Origin: Thermoproteota archaeon
GTDB lineage: Archaea; Thermoproteota; Thermoprotei_A; EX4484-217-1
Length of the DNA stretch: 64,000 nucleotides
Assembly (NCBI GenBank): GCA_029258915.1
Contig: JAPDJU010000001.1
Location: forward strand, 1 to 64,000
Direction: 5' to 3'
A model generated the notes under the pieces. That model searched no databases, was not told where the DNA came from, and saw only the letters and a list, made by a program, of their open reading frames with translations. A program made the position numbers and the translations under genes. Below, piece by piece: positions 26,975 through 52,158 of this stretch. Position 1 is the first letter of the stretch; each line of letters begins with the position of its first letter.

Positions 26975-29302
26975 TCACCTGCTTGAGGTCTTAACGGGGA
27001 TTTTACATGTTACTTCAAGAAAACGCTTGGTCATAGTAGCTGGAGCGTTTACTATGTTAACTTTTTCAGGGAATAAACCTAGTTCCTCAAAAACCCTTCT
27101 AATAAGTTCTACCTTATACTTAGCAGTTTTAGCTCCTAATTCGAAATGGCATCTTTCTAGTGGGCAGCCTACTAGAAGAACGCCGTCTGCACCATAATTA
27201 AGTGCTTCGAGAATGTGAGTTATCGAAATTATTCCAAGACATGGAATAGTTATTGGAATTATTTCAGACATGTATTTTTCATGGTAGAACCCCAATGCAT
27301 CCATTAGTGTGTGCCCGCATTCTTCACAGCACAATGCAATAACTACTCTTTTCCTTAAAGCCTTAGCTTCATCTATAATTGCTTTAATTTGCCTAAGCAA
27401 CAACTCATTAGTGTTATTAACTATGTTAATAGCATTATTAGGGCAAACGCTAGCACATGTTCCACAGCCTTGGCATAATAGCTCATCTACTGATGGACCT
27501 TTCTCAGTAAGTGTTAGTGCATTATATGGGCATGAAATAACACATAGGCCGCATTTAGCACAGAATTCTTCGTCTAAAATAGGTGGTGTAAGTTTTTTCT
27601 CTAAATAGCTAATTACATAGAGTGCGGCTAATGTAGCTGCTGCACTTGCTTGAACAAGTGTTTCTGAAATGTTTTTAGGTCCTTGACACGTACCGCATAT
27701 GAAAATACCCGGTACTTTAGTTTCTATATTACTTACTTTCTCATCTAGTTCTTTAAAGAACCCATATTCATCTAATTCTATGTTTAGGATTTCAGCTAGT
27801 TTCTTAGAATTTTCTCTAGGAACAAGAGCGCAAGATAGTACTACTAAGTCTGCAGGTATTGTACCTGTTTTTCCAAGAGAATCTACGTATTTTACGAGCA
27901 AACTCCCAGACTTATCCTCATATACCTCAACTACATCACCTTTAATGAATTTCACGCCAAGCTCATCCCTAGCTTGAATGTAAAGCTCCTCGAACCTCCC
28001 ATAAGTCCTTATATCCTTATATAATATTGTAATTTCAGCTTCAGGAATATATTCTGTTTTAATTAGTATAGCGTTTTTAATGGCTTCTGTACAGCAGTAT
28101 TTTGAACAATAGGGGTTAGTATCGGGGTCTCTTGATCCTACGCATTGTATCATAACTATTTTTAGCGGCTTCTTACCATCAGAAACCCTAACCAACCTAC
28201 CACCAGTAGGACCTAGGGGGTCCATTAGCCTCTCTAATTGTAATTGCGTTATAATATCCTTGTACTTACCATAGCCGTACTTAGGTATAGTTGATGGGTT
28301 AAACTCTTCAGAACCTGTAGCGACAATAATTGCCCCTACTTCTACTTCTACTTCCTTCGCTTTCTGGCTGAAATCTATGGCATTGTAAGGGCAGACTTCT
28401 TCACAAATATTACACGAGTTCTCGGTAAAGTGTAGACAATGATTAGGGTCTATGATGTACCTGGGAGGTGTAACGTATGGAAGAGGAATGTATATTGCTT
28501 TACGCTTACTTAAACCTCTATCCCATTCGTTAAGAACTAATTGAGGACACTTCTCAGAACATAATCCACAGTTGGTGCACCTATCATAGTTAATATATTT
28601 GGGTTTCTTAATTATCTTAACCTTGAAGCCCCAAGGGTACCTTTTAACATCAGATATTTCACAGTACGTAAGTAGTTCAATATTAGGATTCTCATAAACC
28701 TCTAAAGGTTTTGAACTTTTAACACAAATAGCACAGTTACATTCGTTAATAGAAAACGTCCTATGTAGTAAGGAGGCTAAACCGCCTATAGCTGGGCTGG
28801 ACTCCACTAAATACACTTTAAAACCTTGGCTAGCTAAATCTAATGATGCTTGAATACCGGCGGGACCTCCTCCAATAACTAATACTGCTTCCTTTCTCTT
28901 TACCTTCAACACCTTTTCTTTGCCTAGGGACTTCGCCTTCTCTATTGCAGCAGCTATCATAAGTTTTGCTTTATCGGTAGCTTCCTTTAAACTACCACAT
29001 ACCCAGGCACAGTGTTCCCTAATATTCACATACTCTACTTTTAGGTTAACACCTAGACCACTGGCTGCTTTTTCAAGCACTGGTGAACATATGTACTTTG
29101 AACATGCAATAACTAAGAGAACTTCTGCATTTGACTTTACGTGTTCTTGAACAGCCTTTCTGGCCTCGAAAGTACATAGAGCAGAGTATTTTGTTACTCT
29201 AAGAACATCCTTATATTGTTTAACATATTTCTCAAGTTCGTTAAAGTCAATGTACTTCTCAAGAACCCCGCCACAAGTACAGAAAATAACGTTAATGCTT
29301 AT
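26975..29302 (-). CDS. hdrA: HdrA fused to a C-terminal MvhD domain (copy 2), probable ATA start
   Basis: The conserved HdrA beginning (VIFCTCGGVLEKY) is encoded upstream of the first standard start (GTG 29080, inside the domain). The frame stays open back to a TAG at about 29326-29328 with no ATG, GTG or TTG. An ATA at 29302-29300, seven bases after GGTG (29313-29310), gives a family-like N-terminus, M-S-I-N-V-I-F-C. From there the protein has 775 residues: FAD site VLVIGGGPAGIQASLDLA, CNCAICVK insertion, clusters CTNCGLCSEKCP and CNICEEVCP, QCVGSRDP, then CAKCGLCVISCP and CQGCGTCASVCP. A final MvhD domain (CCEECGHTL, IPCLGIISITH, GCPLERC) follows. A one-base error is the alternative to ATA initiation. 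Confidence 0.88.
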   Translation of the reverse strand: MSINVIFCTCGGVLEKYIDFNELEKYVKQYKDVLRVTKYSALCTFEARKAVQEHVKSNAEVLLVIACSKYICSPVLEKAASGLGVNLKVEYVNIREHCAWVCGSLKEATDKAKLMIAAAIEKAKSLGKEKVLKVKRKEAVLVIGGGPAGIQASLDLASQGFKVYLVESSPAIGGLASLLHRTFSINECNCAICVKSSKPLEVYENPNIELLTYCEISDVKRYPWGFKVKIIKKPKYINYDRCTNCGLCSEKCPQLVLNEWDRGLSKRKAIYIPLPYVTPPRYIIDPNHCLHFTENSCNICEEVCPYNAIDFSQKAKEVEVEVGAIIVATGSEEFNPSTIPKYGYGKYKDIITQLQLERLMDPLGPTGGRLVRVSDGKKPLKIVMIQCVGSRDPDTNPYCSKYCCTEAIKNAILIKTEYIPEAEITILYKDIRTYGRFEELYIQARDELGVKFIKGDVVEVYEDKSGSLLVKYVDSLGKTGTIPADLVVLSCALVPRENSKKLAEILNIELDEYGFFKELDEKVSNIETKVPGIFICGTCQGPKNISETLVQASAAATLAALYVISYLEKKLTPPILDEEFCAKCGLCVISCPYNALTLTEKGPSVDELLCQGCGTCASVCPNNAINIVNNTNELLLRQIKAIIDEAKALRKRVVIALCCEECGHTLMDALGFYHEKYMSEIIPITIPCLGIISITHILEALNYGADGVLLVGCPLERCHFELGAKTAKYKVELIRRVFEELGLFPEKVNIVNAPATMTKRFLEVTCKIPVKTSSR

Positions 29303-29428
29303 GTTTAAACACCTCGAAGGTACTCGCTATTTACCATGCGAATAAAAGTTTTATACTAATTTGTTTTTAACTTTAGAACAGCAATAATAATTTTTTCCTT
29401 AGTAAAAAATATGTGAGAGGAAGTTGAA
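29303..29428. promoter_or_regulatory. Divergent promoter region between hdrA2 and metV
   Basis: The 126-base spacer separates the leftward hdrA2 operon from the rightward metV-metF. It contains a perfect inverted repeat, ATAAAA-g-TTTTAT (29342-29354). Read leftwards, this offers a TATA-like element about 25-30 bases before a short hdrA2 leader. The symmetry could serve both directions or bind a regulator; this is inference only. Confidence 0.4.
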
Positions 29429-41838: not shown

Positions 41839-41915
41839 TTAGGTGTTGGAAACTATTAAATTCTCTGCTCAAAATATTCTACTGAGTACAGAAATCGCAA
41901 CTGCTGAGGTGAATA

Positions 41916-42074
41916 ATTACGGGTAAATGCGCTCTATGCGGTAAGGAAGGAGTATCCTTGCTTATGGCTTTACATAAGAAACTAGGATACATTACGATAT
42001 GTACAGAGTGTTGGAAGAAAAACTGGCATGACCTACTACCCTACGGCGGTGGAGAGCGTAGTTGCTGCGGATAG
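41916..42074 (+). CDS. Small zinc-ribbon protein, non-standard start
   Basis: About 52 residues with three cysteine pairs: KCALCGKEG, ICTECWKKNW and a C-terminal SCCG. No ATG, GTG or TTG precedes KCALC after the in-frame TGA at 41910-41912. GAGGTG at 41906-41911 is a strong ribosome binding site, placing initiation at ATT 41916 or ACG 41919. It lies between the glycosylase and the nucleoside phosphorylase on the same strand. The conserved-looking Cys pattern argues that it is a real gene; it probably binds zinc or nucleic acid. Confidence 0.55.
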   Translation: MTGKCALCGKEGVSLLMALHKKLGYITICTECWKKNWHDLLPYGGGERSCCG

Positions 42075-45079: not shown

Positions 45080-45157
45080 AAACCACGCTTTTAAATATGC
45101 ATTTTAAGAATAGAGGATTTTAGAGAAAGGAAATTTACGTTATGAGGTGTAAATAGC

Positions 45158-46417
45158 CTGTCATTTATACATACTGCAGACATTCATATTGGGGCTTTTA
45201 GCCATACACCGCTGAGAAAAGCCCCTTTAGATGCTTTAAAAGCAATAGTGAATTTGGCTCTTAGTGAAGGGGAGAAAATAATTGTTATCGCAGGGGACCT
45301 TTTCGAATCGCCTAGAATAGGGCATGAACTAACAATTGAAACTGTTAGAACACTTAAGAAAGCAAAAGCAGAAGGTTTAGAAGTAATAGTTACGCCCGGT
45401 TCGCATGACTTAACGGTTAAAGGGCATGGCGTCTTAGCCTTACTTAACGAAGTTGGCCTTGTTAAAACAACAGACTTCGTAGAAACAGAATTCGCGTTAA
45501 AACTTAAACCAGCAATAGTAGAGAACATTAGATTTTATGGAATACCAGGATTTAAGGGAGAAAGAGAAATAGAATATTTAGAGTCTAGGAGAATAGAATA
45601 CGGCGACTTCAGCGGTAACTATGACAATGTTTTAATAGCTCATGTAGGACTCGATATCGGTGCAATAGATCTTTCTAAAATAAGCCCCAAATACTCAGTA
45701 ATTAAGCTTTCAAGAGAAGCTCAAAAAGCAATACATAAACATTTTAAGTATTTAGCATTAGGCCATATTCATTTTCCAGTTCCATATCACGAATTTTTTG
45801 AAGCCAATATAGCATATCCTGGAGCACCAGTAGGCAGGGATGCTAGCGATATTTTTGAAACATATAAACTACGTAAAATGTTTAACACGGATAGAAGAGT
45901 TTTACATGTTAAACTAGGTAAAGACATACCTAGAATAAAGGCTTTAAAAAACAGTTTCAATATTGAAGTAGATGTTGTAGAAATTAGCAATCCCTCAGAA
46001 GCCGTAGGAATCGTAAAGTCTAAATTAAAAGACATGGCTGAAAAATACAAGTGTTTGATAATTTTTACAGGAAAAATAAGCTTTGAAAAATATAGTAAAA
46101 TAAGAAAGTATGTTGAAGAAGAAGCTAGAAAACATGGAGCATGGGTTCATATAATTCATAGTGAAGTAAGCGATGAATATGTTCAGTTACTTGAAGAGTT
46201 TAAAGCAGATTTAACAAACATTGAAGCATTAGAGCTGGAAGCAATAACAAGACTCATAAAGAAATTCGGTGTGAAAACATCACCGCAAAAAATACTTGAA
46301 CTAATTAACGTACTAGGTAAAGAATATCCTGAGGGGATTAAGAAAAGAGATTATGATGAAGAAATAGTTGGTGAAATAATTAAAATCCTAGACTATATTC
46401 TTAAAGGTGAAAAATAA
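45158..46417 (+). CDS. mre11: Mre11 DNA double-strand-break repair nuclease, probable CTG start
   Basis: The conserved beginning FIHTADIHIG (family: M-x-F-x-H-T-A-D-x-H-x-G) lies before the first standard in-frame start (ATG or TTG near 45248), and a TGA at 45143-45145 closes the frame upstream. CTG at 45158, eight bases after GGTG (45146-45149), gives M-S-F-I-H-T-A-D, the exact family length. From there 419 residues: GDLFESPR, PGSHD, AHVGLDIGAID and GHIH phosphoesterase motifs, plus a C-terminal Rad50-binding region. It forms the MR complex with Rad50, resecting DNA ends with NurA-HerA. It overlaps nurA by one base (TAATG). Confidence 0.92.
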   Translation: MSFIHTADIHIGAFSHTPLRKAPLDALKAIVNLALSEGEKIIVIAGDLFESPRIGHELTIETVRTLKKAKAEGLEVIVTPGSHDLTVKGHGVLALLNEVGLVKTTDFVETEFALKLKPAIVENIRFYGIPGFKGEREIEYLESRRIEYGDFSGNYDNVLIAHVGLDIGAIDLSKISPKYSVIKLSREAQKAIHKHFKYLALGHIHFPVPYHEFFEANIAYPGAPVGRDASDIFETYKLRKMFNTDRRVLHVKLGKDIPRIKALKNSFNIEVDVVEISNPSEAVGIVKSKLKDMAEKYKCLIIFTGKISFEKYSKIRKYVEEEARKHGAWVHIIHSEVSDEYVQLLEEFKADLTNIEALELEAITRLIKKFGVKTSPQKILELINVLGKEYPEGIKKRDYDEEIVGEIIKILDYILKGEK

Positions 46418-47772
46418 TGGATAACTTAACTAGTGTTTTAGAAAATGTCTTAGGATCTTTAGCTAAAATGGTTTCAGAAGTAGCACAGGATAAGATGACT
46501 AGGTTACTAGCTGAAGTTTATCAACAATACTATGTAGCTAAAGAATTTAAAGAACCTATAAAATCTAGTATAGCACTTGTAGATGCTGGAATATATCCTT
46601 TAGATATGGACATAGCAAGAGTACTATACATTCAAATAGGAGCGCTTGTACGAGATTCTGAAGGAAAGCTTGGAACAATAAACATTGTTCCGGGCTTAGA
46701 AAAGTACCCTCCTGTTGAAAGAATAATTCTAACAGTTACGCGTAGAAGAACGTTTAGTGAAGGCACTTTAAAACATGTTTTCGAAGTTAGAATACAGACA
46801 CCTGAGAGATCATCATTACTTCTTGAAAGTAATAGTGAAGCCCAAAGGATTTCAAAAGAAATCACTGAAGTACTTAGAGAACTAGGTTTAACGGTTGAAC
46901 TTAGAAGACCATCGCTATACCGTAAACTGGCTAGGTATATTGAAGGCCTTATAGAGTTAGCATATGGTATTAAATTGGCGGAATATGGAAATTTAAGTAC
47001 ATCGCTCATAGATGGAACGCTCATTAGATGGTTAAGACCTAAAAGAAAATCATCAAAGTATAAAATTGATGGATTAGACATATTATCAGCTATTCTAAGT
47101 AGCTCAACATATAAGGTTAAAAAGCAATGTATAGATAAGTTAGCAGGTTTAGCTAAAACCACAACATTCACCACATTAGCTAGAGCTATGAAGATTTTTG
47201 AGCCAAAATTAAAACAAGGACGCCATGAATTATACACTTTAATTAACAAGCATAGTTTACCATCAATAAAAATGCTTCTAGAAACAGTGGAAGAAAAAGG
47301 ATTTGAAGAATGTAGAATACCTAGGGAGGTTATTGAAGACATAGTTAAGAAACTAAGTACTAAGGTTTATCCAGCACATGAACTTTGGGTTTCTAGATTC
47401 CCATTAACAATGGATGGAGAACATATTATGGTTCTTGATGTTTATACCGAAAAACCTCCTATTGGTTTTATTCAAGAAGGTAAAGCACGTTTCCTAAAAA
47501 CATTTCCGCTTATAACAGAGGAGACAAATAAGAGAGTCGATACCATTGTCAGGGAAGCGTTCTCGGCTAAAAGCCCTCTTCCAGGCAGGCCTCCTACGGG
47601 ATTTATGGAGATAGATGAAAATGTTAGAGTTTATGGCGATTTAAGAAAGCTTTTTGAAGCCCATTTAACAGCAGCAGCCTTAAACATTTCTAAGAGAGAT
47701 AAAGAGCTTTCAAAAATACTTTTACAAATAATTAAAGGAAGTTTAAGATTAAGACTTGGCTATGGTGTTTAA
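46417..47772 (+). CDS. nurA: NurA 5'-3' nuclease
   Basis: 451 residues. The RNaseH-like NurA core shows the metal-binding Asp in IALVDAGIYPLD, a second acidic region around LSTSLIDGTLIRWL, and the late FPLTMDGEHIMVLDVYTEKPP followed by RPPTGFMEIDENVRVYG. It works with the HerA translocase to chew the 5' strand during recombination repair. It is third from the end of the four-gene operon mre11-nurA-herA-rad50, each gene overlapping or nearly touching the next. Confidence 0.9.
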   Translation: MDNLTSVLENVLGSLAKMVSEVAQDKMTRLLAEVYQQYYVAKEFKEPIKSSIALVDAGIYPLDMDIARVLYIQIGALVRDSEGKLGTINIVPGLEKYPPVERIILTVTRRRTFSEGTLKHVFEVRIQTPERSSLLLESNSEAQRISKEITEVLRELGLTVELRRPSLYRKLARYIEGLIELAYGIKLAEYGNLSTSLIDGTLIRWLRPKRKSSKYKIDGLDILSAILSSSTYKVKKQCIDKLAGLAKTTTFTTLARAMKIFEPKLKQGRHELYTLINKHSLPSIKMLLETVEEKGFEECRIPREVIEDIVKKLSTKVYPAHELWVSRFPLTMDGEHIMVLDVYTEKPPIGFIQEGKARFLKTFPLITEETNKRVDTIVREAFSAKSPLPGRPPTGFMEIDENVRVYGDLRKLFEAHLTAAALNISKRDKELSKILLQIIKGSLRLRLGYGV

Positions 47773-47773
47773 G

Positions 47774-49741
47774 ATGGGAAGTATTGTGGGCAGAATTTTT
47801 TCTTCATCAAAGGATGAAGTACTTATCTCAGTTTCTGGGGAAGCAAAAGTCAACGTGGGAGATATATTATACATAAAAATTAGCGGTCTAGATAACGTTT
47901 TGTTATTACACGTAGAGGATATTAAAAGCAAACTACCTACAGGAGTAAGCAGAACCTTAGGACTAATACCTAGCGGTGTTGAGCCAAGCGGATCAATTAT
48001 TGAAACATCGGTAGAAGAGGTTATAGTAGCGAAACCATTATTTACTCTGCGTAGAGGAGCCGAGATAAACGTAACTAGAGCCATAACGCCTCCTCCTGTT
48101 AATGCTCCGGCGTATATGCTGTCAAACGATGATGAAGAATCAAGGAAAATAATGGGGTTCTTTAGTAAAGGTATTGCACAGGAAATAACAGAAGCAACTA
48201 TACCTGTAGGTGTTCTTAGAAGCGGAACAGCATCAACAAGGGATGAAAGAGAGAGAAAGTATTTTGAAACAGCTAAAATTATAGCAAACATTGAGACTCT
48301 AATACCTAAACACATACTTGTCTCAGGGCAGACAGGTGCAGGTAAGACAACAAGTGTTATGGGGCTTATAATAAACTGGGCTTTACATTCAGCCAAGCCC
48401 ACAGGCTGGCTTATAATAGATAGGCATGGCGAATACAGCAAGTATTCTACAGGCTTAGAAGAAATGTTTCTTAACAAGCTAAGTAAAGCTTTAAAAGCTA
48501 ATAGCAATGAGGAAATAAGCACATTAAGAACATACGTTTACAGGTTATCATTTAGCCCTAAAGAACCTGAATATCCTACATCTAAAGTTGAAGTAAACCA
48601 TGCACCAATAAATGTAGGTAGTTTAACAGTTGATGACGTAGCCATGGCATTAGACCTAAGAGACGAAGAAACAGTATGGCTAGAAATGATAATAGAGACT
48701 TTAGAAAGCATAATTATGTCAAGCGATCTAGAAGAATCATGGAAAAATATTTTCAAAAGAAGCGAAGAAGGAAGTTTAAGCGGACACCTATTACCACTCT
48801 TAGTAACTATAGTAGATAACGTATGTAACTATGAAGGTGTAGGAGTTAAGGAAAAGAAAGGCGTATACAGAGAATTCGTTCAGCAAGGGATTTACATTCA
48901 AAAGCTAAGGCTATGGAGAAATAGAATAGCTTCAATTCTAAACATAAACACAAGAAAAATACCTGAACATGGTGGAGTTATAGTAATTCTAGACGATTCA
49001 AGAAGTATATTCAAAATAAGCGGCATATTTAAGAGTAAAAGTGCTCTCAAAAAACTACTTAAAGCAGTAGTTACAAGCCCCATACTTTCAGCAAGGCAGT
49101 CGCTTACAAGCTATAAATGGTATACTATAGAAGAGGAAGAAGAAGCAATAGCATTAGAAAACGGCATACCAATAAATACCATAATTGAGAAGGTAGAGAA
49201 AGGAAACATAGTAATACTTGATATTTCAACAGCTCCTTCAAACCAAGCCGATGCTTTCGTACTTAACGTTGTCAGAAGACTTCTACTAGGAAGGCTAGGT
49301 TTAACACCTAAAGAAATAAGAATGAAAAACATTATCGCCATAGTTTCTGAGGAAGCTCCCCTATATTTAACACCAGACAAAGTTAGAAGCCCCAGAAACG
49401 CTTTTGCAAGAATAGCTAGGGAAGGAAGAAAATTCAACATAGGATTAATAGCTATAACGCAGCTAGCAACGTTAATAGATAAGCAGCTCTTAGCGAACAT
49501 GAACACATACGTTGTTTTAAGGACAAAGTTTAGGTCAGACATAGAATATTTTTCATCAATAGGAGTGCCTCCACATGAAATACCATTACTTAATGATAGA
49601 GAGGGATACATTTACACGCCAGATCTTAAAGTTAAGGATCCAATACCAACATACTTCAAAGGATGGTTTGAAATAAACATAGAAGAAAAGGGAAGACCAA
49701 AAACTCTCAAAGAGATAAGTAAAATGTTAAGCGAGGTATAG
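47774..49741 (+). CDS. herA: HerA hexameric DNA-translocating ATPase
   Basis: I place the start at ATG 47774 (GGTG six bases upstream, directly after the nurA stop) rather than the earlier in-frame TTG. 655 residues: an N-terminal HAS-barrel (MGSIVGRIFSSS), Walker A SGQTGAGKTTSV, LIIDRHGEY (Walker B), and a C-terminal arginine-finger region in EGRKFNIGLIAITQLATLID. It pumps DNA towards NurA for 5' resection. Normal family length is about 500-600, so it is slightly long. Confidence 0.93.
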   Translation: MGSIVGRIFSSSKDEVLISVSGEAKVNVGDILYIKISGLDNVLLLHVEDIKSKLPTGVSRTLGLIPSGVEPSGSIIETSVEEVIVAKPLFTLRRGAEINVTRAITPPPVNAPAYMLSNDDEESRKIMGFFSKGIAQEITEATIPVGVLRSGTASTRDERERKYFETAKIIANIETLIPKHILVSGQTGAGKTTSVMGLIINWALHSAKPTGWLIIDRHGEYSKYSTGLEEMFLNKLSKALKANSNEEISTLRTYVYRLSFSPKEPEYPTSKVEVNHAPINVGSLTVDDVAMALDLRDEETVWLEMIIETLESIIMSSDLEESWKNIFKRSEEGSLSGHLLPLLVTIVDNVCNYEGVGVKEKKGVYREFVQQGIYIQKLRLWRNRIASILNINTRKIPEHGGVIVILDDSRSIFKISGIFKSKSALKKLLKAVVTSPILSARQSLTSYKWYTIEEEEEAIALENGIPINTIIEKVEKGNIVILDISTAPSNQADAFVLNVVRRLLLGRLGLTPKEIRMKNIIAIVSEEAPLYLTPDKVRSPRNAFARIAREGRKFNIGLIAITQLATLIDKQLLANMNTYVVLRTKFRSDIEYFSSIGVPPHEIPLLNDREGYIYTPDLKVKDPIPTYFKGWFEINIEEKGRPKTLKEISKMLSEV

Positions 49742-49746
49742 AAGTA

Positions 49747-52158
49747 ATGATAATTAAAGCTATATGGCTTCACAACATAAGATCCTATAAAGATGAAATA
49801 ATAGCCTTTCCAGAAAAAGGAATAACAGTAATTTATGGGGATATAGGGTCTGGAAAAACAAGTATTTTAGGAGCCATAGGATTCGCACTTTTCGGAAATG
49901 TGCCCGGAGCACCGTCAGACCCGTTGGCTAGATTTGCAAATCCGACAGCAAGGGATCTTTTGAGAAGAGGTGCATCAAAAGGCTTTATAAGATTATGGAT
50001 TAAAAGCAGTGGAAAAGACATCATAATTCATAGAGAAATTCAGGAAACAGGGAGAACTGTTCAAGATAAAGGAGGGTGGATTTTAGTTGCCGGTAAGAAC
50101 GTAGAACCAAGACTTAAGCATCTATCAGCAACAGAAATGAGAAGCTACATCATGGAGCTTTTAGGATTACCTGAGGAAAAAACCAGAGCTAGAAGCAGAG
50201 TTTTTGCTTCAGCAATATATGTTCCGCAATTTGGTGTACACTCAATTTTAACTGTTAGTAGTGAGGAAAGATCTGAAATAGTAAATAGAGTATTAAACCT
50301 TTACAAGTATAGTTTAGCTAAAAACAGAATTGACGCATTAAAATCAGTAATTAGAAGAAAAATAGAAAGAGAACTAAGGATAAAGGAAAGAGAACTAGAA
50401 ATTGAAATCTCAAAGGAACATGAAATAAAGAAAAACATTGAGAAACTAGAAAGAGAAATGTTAGAATTAAAAAGAAAGCTAAAGGAACTAAGCGAAAAAA
50501 TAGATGCGAAGAACAAGGAGGCAGAAGAGTTAGAAAAAAGGGTTCTTGAAAAACAAAAGGAAATAAGCGAACTAGAAGCTTATAGTAAGAGAGTTGAGGA
50601 ACTAAACATAGCCAAAGAGGAACTGTTAGAAGAAATTGGAGAAAGGAATACTGCAGAAATACTTAAAGAACTTAGTGAGTCAAAGAAAAAATTATCTGAA
50701 ATATTTAAAGAGATAGAAAAACTAGAAAAACTAAGAAACAGTATTTCATCCAAAATAGATTCTTTACAAAGTGGTTTAAATGCGAAAATAAAAAGCAAAG
50801 AAAGTGTAATAAGCAAACTGCAGCTTAAGAAGGGAGAACTAAACAAGCTAATTGAAAGACTAAGAGAAATAGAGGATTTAGAAAGAAAAGGTAAATGCCC
50901 CGTCTGTAAACAACCAGTAACTCATACGCATGCTAAGGAACTTAAAAATGGAATTAAAAGTAAAGTAACTAAAATAGAGAGCGAAATAAAAGAATTAAGC
51001 AATAAAGTAAAAGCCCTAGAAAATGAAATAAAAAGCTTAGAAAATACAATTAATGAGAAAAACAATGTACTTAAAGAGGTCAACGATAGGTATTCTACAG
51101 CGCTTACTGACTATAAGGAAGCAAATAATAGAGTAACGAAATTGTCTGTGCTTTATGAGAAAGCTAGGAAACTAGAGGAAATCAGCAATGAATTAAAAGT
51201 CTTACAAGAAAAACTTTCAAGAAAAGAACATGTTATAAAAGAATACAATAAGCTTAAACAAAAATTAGAAGACATTAAAAAAGAACGCACAGGGCTAACT
51301 GAGGAGTACCGCTCAGCAAGCGAGGATTATGGTAGAGTAAGAGGAGAACTTAAAGGGCTCAGGGAAATGCTTAAGCAAATAGATGAGAAAAAGGAGAAAC
51401 TCAATGAAATACGTGCAGAGATAAATAAATACATCAGGTATCTTAACTTTGTAAACAAATACATTTTAAGTATAATAAGTGAAGTTGAAAGATATGTGAA
51501 AAATAGAGCATTTAGTGCTTTTAGAGAAGAGTTTATGAAAATATTTAAAACATTGATGTCAGGTTATGAAAACATTGATGTCGAAATTAAGCCTGACTTC
51601 TCATTGTCGTTTAAAGCAAAAATTGATGGGGTTTTAAAAACAATAGAAACGCCAAGTGGAGGACAGTTAACATGTATTTCACTAGCATATAGGCTTGCTT
51701 TAAACAGAGTTGCTAGAAGCATGATACCACAACTTAGTAAAGGACTTCTAATACTTGATGAACCAACATACGGTTTTTCACCTGAAAGAGTAGAGCTTTT
51801 AAGAAAAGTACTATTTAGTCCAGGTGGACCAAACCAAGTAATTGTAGTAACTCACGATAGAACATTTTATGAAGCCACAGGTGAAGAACGGCTAAGCATA
51901 ATAAGGTTGGAGCTGAATTCAACAACAACAGCTACTAAGGTATTTTATGAAAACATTGATGAAAACTACATTAGAAAAGTCAAAGAAGCATTTAAAGAAA
52001 TTAGAAGAGCTGTGATAGAGCTTAAAGAAAAACCTATAGCTAAAGAATACGTTAAATTTAAACCTATAATTAAAACTAAGGTAGAAGTAAAGAAAAAAGA
52101 AGCTAAAGAAAAGAAAAAAGAAATACCCTTAATTGAATTCTTCAAGCAAGAAGAGTAG
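49747..52158 (+). CDS. rad50: Rad50 ATPase with zinc hook
   Basis: 803 residues. Walker A GDIGSGKT (31-38), a long heptad-rich coiled coil in two halves around the zinc hook CPVC (C384, C387), then signature TPSGGQLTCISLAYRLAL, Walker B LLILDEPTYGF and His-switch VVTHDRTF. The C-terminus ends in a Lys/Glu-rich tail (KKKEAKEKKKE) not typical of Rad50. It tethers DNA ends and controls Mre11. The last gene of the repair operon, 5 bases after herA. Confidence 0.95.
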   Translation: MIIKAIWLHNIRSYKDEIIAFPEKGITVIYGDIGSGKTSILGAIGFALFGNVPGAPSDPLARFANPTARDLLRRGASKGFIRLWIKSSGKDIIIHREIQETGRTVQDKGGWILVAGKNVEPRLKHLSATEMRSYIMELLGLPEEKTRARSRVFASAIYVPQFGVHSILTVSSEERSEIVNRVLNLYKYSLAKNRIDALKSVIRRKIERELRIKERELEIEISKEHEIKKNIEKLEREMLELKRKLKELSEKIDAKNKEAEELEKRVLEKQKEISELEAYSKRVEELNIAKEELLEEIGERNTAEILKELSESKKKLSEIFKEIEKLEKLRNSISSKIDSLQSGLNAKIKSKESVISKLQLKKGELNKLIERLREIEDLERKGKCPVCKQPVTHTHAKELKNGIKSKVTKIESEIKELSNKVKALENEIKSLENTINEKNNVLKEVNDRYSTALTDYKEANNRVTKLSVLYEKARKLEEISNELKVLQEKLSRKEHVIKEYNKLKQKLEDIKKERTGLTEEYRSASEDYGRVRGELKGLREMLKQIDEKKEKLNEIRAEINKYIRYLNFVNKYILSIISEVERYVKNRAFSAFREEFMKIFKTLMSGYENIDVEIKPDFSLSFKAKIDGVLKTIETPSGGQLTCISLAYRLALNRVARSMIPQLSKGLLILDEPTYGFSPERVELLRKVLFSPGGPNQVIVVTHDRTFYEATGEERLSIIRLELNSTTTATKVFYENIDENYIRKVKEAFKEIRRAVIELKEKPIAKEYVKFKPIIKTKVEVKKKEAKEKKKEIPLIEFFKQEE

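Follow-up and report, generated by a model that had tools for sequence, protein, structure and literature searches.

The mre11 locus

The window, a 64,000-nucleotide stretch of DNA from an uncultured, heat-loving Thermoproteota archaeon (genome G000), contains the DNA-repair gene mre11 in the stop-to-stop frame 45146-46417 (+), whose stop codon lies at 46415-46417, and the genes nurA, herA and rad50 follow on the same strand (Table 1). The bases after the TGA that closes the frame on the 5' side read GGT GTA AAT AGC CTG TCA TTT ATA CAT ACT GCA GAC. An earlier note, made from the sequence alone, had proposed that the gene starts at this CTG, and its description of the site is accurate: the conserved N-terminus is encoded upstream of every standard start, the first in-frame ATG, GTG or TTG being the GTG at 45248; the TGA lies 12 bases before the CTG; and the CTG follows a GGTG (45146-45149) after exactly 8 bases. 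Between the TGA and this GTG, 30 codons downstream of the CTG, no standard start gives the conserved N-terminus.

Table 1 Features of the mre11 locus and of two further genes in the window
Feature	Position	Strand	Description and evidence
ATA, probable start of hdrA2	29300..29302	-	frame 26978-29326; register-15 GAGGTG; start of NCBIfam HdrA2 profile no more than one residue away
ACG, probable start of small zinc-ribbon gene	41919..41921	+	frame 41913-42071; GAGGTG 7 nt upstream; G001 orthologue has ATG GGT AAA TGT at the same codon
TATA-box-like element TTTTAAATA	45089..45097	+	about 65 bp before CTG; direct reading; present in sister species G001
Mini-ORF ATG AGG TGT AAA TAG	45142..45156	+	overlaps the Shine-Dalgarno sequence; frame differs from mre11; ends 1 nt before CTG; direct reading
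In-frame stop TGA	45143..45145	+	bounds mre11 frame on 5' side; direct reading
Shine-Dalgarno GAGGTG	45144..45149	+	complementary to own-genome 16S 3' end ATCACCTCCT; kept in G001, G002 and G006
CTG initiation codon of mre11	45158..45160	+	register 16, 8-nt spacer; NTG in 10/10 orthologues; aligns with P. furiosus Mre11 Met1
mre11	45158..46417	+	419 aa read from CTG; nuclease of the Mre11-Rad50-HerA-NurA set; PF00149, PDB Mre11 matches, operon neighbours
First standard in-frame start GTG	45248..45250	+	likely mis-annotated start; its use removes the first 30 residues including D-x-H
nurA (46417), herA (TTG 47756), rad50 (49747)	46417..52158	+	downstream of mre11; Pfam NurA, DUF87/HerA, AAA_23 and zinc hook

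The 3' end of the 16S rRNA of this genome is GGATCACCTCCT, so that the GAGGTG is a 6-nt Shine-Dalgarno (SD) match. Registers were measured from where the full SD, AGGAGGTGATC, begins; that of the CTG, 16, falls within the main peak (13-16) of the SD-marked standard starts, which were sampled over 450 kb and then over 850 kb. The match to the 16S gene itself (L159, G000:C8:29093-31288, -) spans 2196 bp against a model of 1478 positions, and the gene thus holds intron-like insertions of about 700 bp in all.

The TATA-like element, which is common to the sister species, suggests a promoter, and its position points to a leader some 40 nt long, so that the mre11 start is probably not leaderless.

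The Mre11 protein

The mre11 product scores 34.1 bits against the metallophosphoesterase family PF00149 (cut-off 21.5). It did not reach the cut-offs of the NCBIfam Mre11 equivalogs, the best, NF041029, giving 53.1 bits where 600 are required; the names of these models (Pyroc, Sulfo, Halo) mark them as lineage-specific. Motif I, D-x-H, is present near the N-terminus, within H-T-A-D-I-H, which spans residues 5-10 when the CTG is taken as residue 1. Motif III reads GSHD and not GNHD in this genome and in G001, G002, G006, G016 and G037, and GNHD in G028, G005, G029 and G036. In studied Mre11 proteins the Asn of this motif is a metal ligand. GSHD is a variant common to a group of orthologues, in which His and Asp are kept and Asn is replaced by Ser.

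The protein is collinear from residue 2 with Pyrococcus furiosus Mre11 (PDB 1II7), with which it shares the D-x-H, GDLF and GHIH motifs; it differs in the CTG start of its gene and in the GSHD of motif III. Residue 2 aligns with residue 2, and the CTG therefore takes the place of Met1.

Conservation of the start codon among orthologues

Mre11 was found in 38 of the 41 genomes. G001 belongs to the same genus (Desulfurococcales metagenome genome ex4484_217_1, locus on NJED01000019.1), and its Mre11 is 81% identical. We compared ten close orthologues, including the one in the window, at the codon four positions before the His of the motif. This codon is NTG in all ten: CTG in G000, G001 and G006, TTG in G002, G016, G037 and G036, and ATG in G028, G005 and G029. 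The CTG is thus carried not only by both species of the genus but also by a member of another family of the class (G006). SD and CTG are unchanged from G000 to G001, although an indel and substitutions have altered the spacer between them. CTG is rare among leucine codons (4.6% of Leu codons and 0.48% of all codons in G000, 5.5% of Leu codons in G001), so its presence as an ordinary leucine in three genomes would be odd. G006 has an in-frame GTG five codons upstream of the CTG, overlapping the SD, and in that genome the CTG is therefore not strictly forced as the start.

A stop codon directly precedes the mre11 start in four of the ten orthologues (G001, G016, G037 and G036), and in G001 it is an in-frame TAG. 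Among SD-marked starts of G000, about 11% of those at TTG or GTG have a stop directly before them, compared with 5% of those at ATG; taken as a general motif, the arrangement favours TTG/GTG starts over ATG starts only weakly.

Probable initiation at the CTG and its alternatives

Taken together, the sequence comparisons indicate that translation of mre11 very probably begins at the CTG at 45158, through ordinary SD initiation on a leadered mRNA. The GAGGTG of the leader would pair with the 16S 3' end and place the CUG in the P site, where the initiator Met-tRNA would tolerate its mismatched first base. Mre11 would then presumably begin with Met and have a normal N-terminus, (M)SFIHTADIHIGAF, that is (Met)-Ser-Phe-Ile-His-Thr-Ala-Asp. 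The CUG may also lower the yield and so keep Mre11 scarce. The alignment of Mre11 starts in related genomes, which the earlier note had named as a check, supports its proposal through the conserved NTG and the match to the P. furiosus N-terminus.

The mini-ORF opens another route to the same codon, in which ribosomes would start at the ATG at 45142, terminate at the TAG and restart at the adjacent CTG. We consider it improbable that the CTG is used mainly through such reinitiation. The corresponding mini-ORF of G001 (ATG AGG TGT AGT TAG) ends 0 nt before the CTG, as against 1 nt in G000, although the frame relative to mre11 differs between the two species, and both this and the stops directly before the start in other orthologues would fit a coupled restart. 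However, the ATG of the mini-ORF is part of the string ATGAGGTG, whose GAGGTG is the SD itself; an AT stands directly 5' of GAGGTG in 14 of 166 cases, and the placement of the mini-ORF over the SD may be a coincidence. Nor is the arrangement general: G002 lacks such a mini-ORF, in G006 the place of its ATG is taken by a GTG that itself opens the mre11 frame, and the frequency of stops directly before SD-marked TTG/GTG starts in this genome (see above) also speaks against a special role.

The other alternatives dispense with the CTG as a start, and we give each of them almost no weight. Both G000 and G001 have an ATG and a few codons immediately upstream, and a programmed frameshift or readthrough could in principle join it to the mre11 frame, but this would take a +1 shift at the TAG in G000 and readthrough of the in-frame TAG in G001; elsewhere among the relatives the CTG site holds an NTG immediately preceded by a stop, and one simple start explains all of these cases. 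The source is a draft genome of 15 contigs, in which an assembly or sequencing error could hide an ordinary start, the outcome that the earlier note had named as refuting its proposal. This is not borne out: G001 and G006 share the CTG at the same codon, one of them with a stop directly before it, and the other relatives have TTG or ATG. Both an error and a frameshift are very unlikely. A gene finder that accepts only ATG, GTG and TTG would be expected to call the GTG at 45248, yet a protein starting there would lose the 30 conserved residues that include the catalytic D-x-H motif; 20 of the 25 residues just upstream of this GTG are identical in G001, and the alignment with P. furiosus Mre11 begins at residue 2. 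Initiation at the CTG, the preferred reading, makes mre11 a new, well-supported case of a known type of non-AUG start.

Candidate non-standard starts in the rest of the genome

The earlier note had listed hdrA2 and a small zinc-ribbon gene of the window beside mre11 as having non-standard initiators. Both are plausible in outline, the zinc-ribbon gene strongly so (ACG, where G001 has ATG); in hdrA2 no standard start lies close to the conserved N-terminus, and the ATA at 29302 (-) is the best candidate. We detected similar candidates in other genes. Reverse gyrase has a CTG after an 8-nt SD, and G001 has ATG one codon later; in an NAD-dependent epimerase the CTG follows an SD of 7 nt. Both species have GGTGGGGTTTAA CTG in a gene whose product contains a Bud32/RIO-like kinase domain, and ACG in the gene of a DUF1512 protein; the candidate start of HflX is ATA. 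NCBI table 11 lists CTG, ATA, ATT and ATC as possible starts, and ACG is absent from it.

Two further genes have a strong SD with TTT at the best distance and no near-cognate of AUG there, namely coaD (L124:10233-10724 (+); G001 contig 40), in both species, and uridine phosphorylase (L202:11424-12266 (+)). In G001, a TFB-like zinc-ribbon gene (contig 55:10357-11355 (-)) has AAGGTGAGATT ACG ATA TAT before its conserved part and no standard start nearby.

In a sample of 850 kb and 722 genes of G000, the codon at SD register 14-16 was scored when it lay upstream of every standard start. Many raw candidates were antisense shadows or lay at contig edges and were discarded. With an SD of at least 6 nt, CTG was observed 3 times against 0.08 expected and ACG 2 times against 0.09. 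With an SD of at least 5 nt, CTG was observed 5 times against 0.25 expected (P about 6e-6, a rough value, as are the P values generally, because expectations are average codon frequencies with no full gene model and several codons were looked at). The CTG excess comes from only a few genes, and the candidate lists include chance sites. G001 gave 3 CTG against 0.43 expected (SD of at least 5 nt), and a 400-kb sample of G003, from another genus of the order, gave 0 CTG, 0 ACG and 0 ATA at the register.

From these counts, the genus may have relaxed start selection and, given a good SD, may start roughly 1% of its genes, mre11, reverse gyrase, hflX and hdrA2 among them, at near-cognates of AUG (CTG, ACG and ATA), unlike another genus of its order; we regard this as equally likely to be right or wrong. 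Such a pattern across the genus would be of more interest than the mre11 case. In a comparison of aIF1 with that of relatives other than G001, the body of the protein showed no striking feature and the factor of this genome looked ordinary, so that no cause for relaxed start selection was found there. Neither the retrieved tRNA loci nor a simple end pattern yielded a recognisable initiator tRNA; several tRNAs carry introns, and the initiator tRNA gene may simply be interrupted by one.

Comparison with known starts and significance

The mre11 start resembles standard archaeal SD-led starts in its GAGGTG complementary to the 16S tail, its 8-nt spacer and its register in the main peak of the genome, and differs from them in that the codon is CTG and not ATG, GTG or TTG. 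A review of archaeal initiation names, in part of its text, only AUG, GUG and UUG as start codons (PMC7531240), and a survey of start codons found that CUG had replaced an ancestral AUG start in 2 of 61,358 cases (PMC5622118). Archaeal aIF1 reportedly counteracts non-AUG complexes (PMC6237735, PMC8211752). In the open-access literature, a scope outside which most subscription journals lie, we found no direct precedent for CUG starts in archaea. With the rare CUG starts of prokaryotes the mre11 codon shares its nature as a near-cognate that differs from AUG at the first position. In contrast to them, it is retained by two congeneric species and also present in a more distant third genome, and other apparent near-cognate starts occur in the same genus.

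Gene finders that accept only ATG, GTG and TTG would truncate or misplace mre11 and several other genes in such archaea, and surveys built on such annotation would under-count other starts. For the question of how far archaeal initiation, with its SD, aIF1 and aIF2, tolerates a mismatch at the first codon position, nature offers a clean test in the CTG conserved within a repair operon; for the second position it offers one in the ACG/ATG pair of the zinc-ribbon gene.
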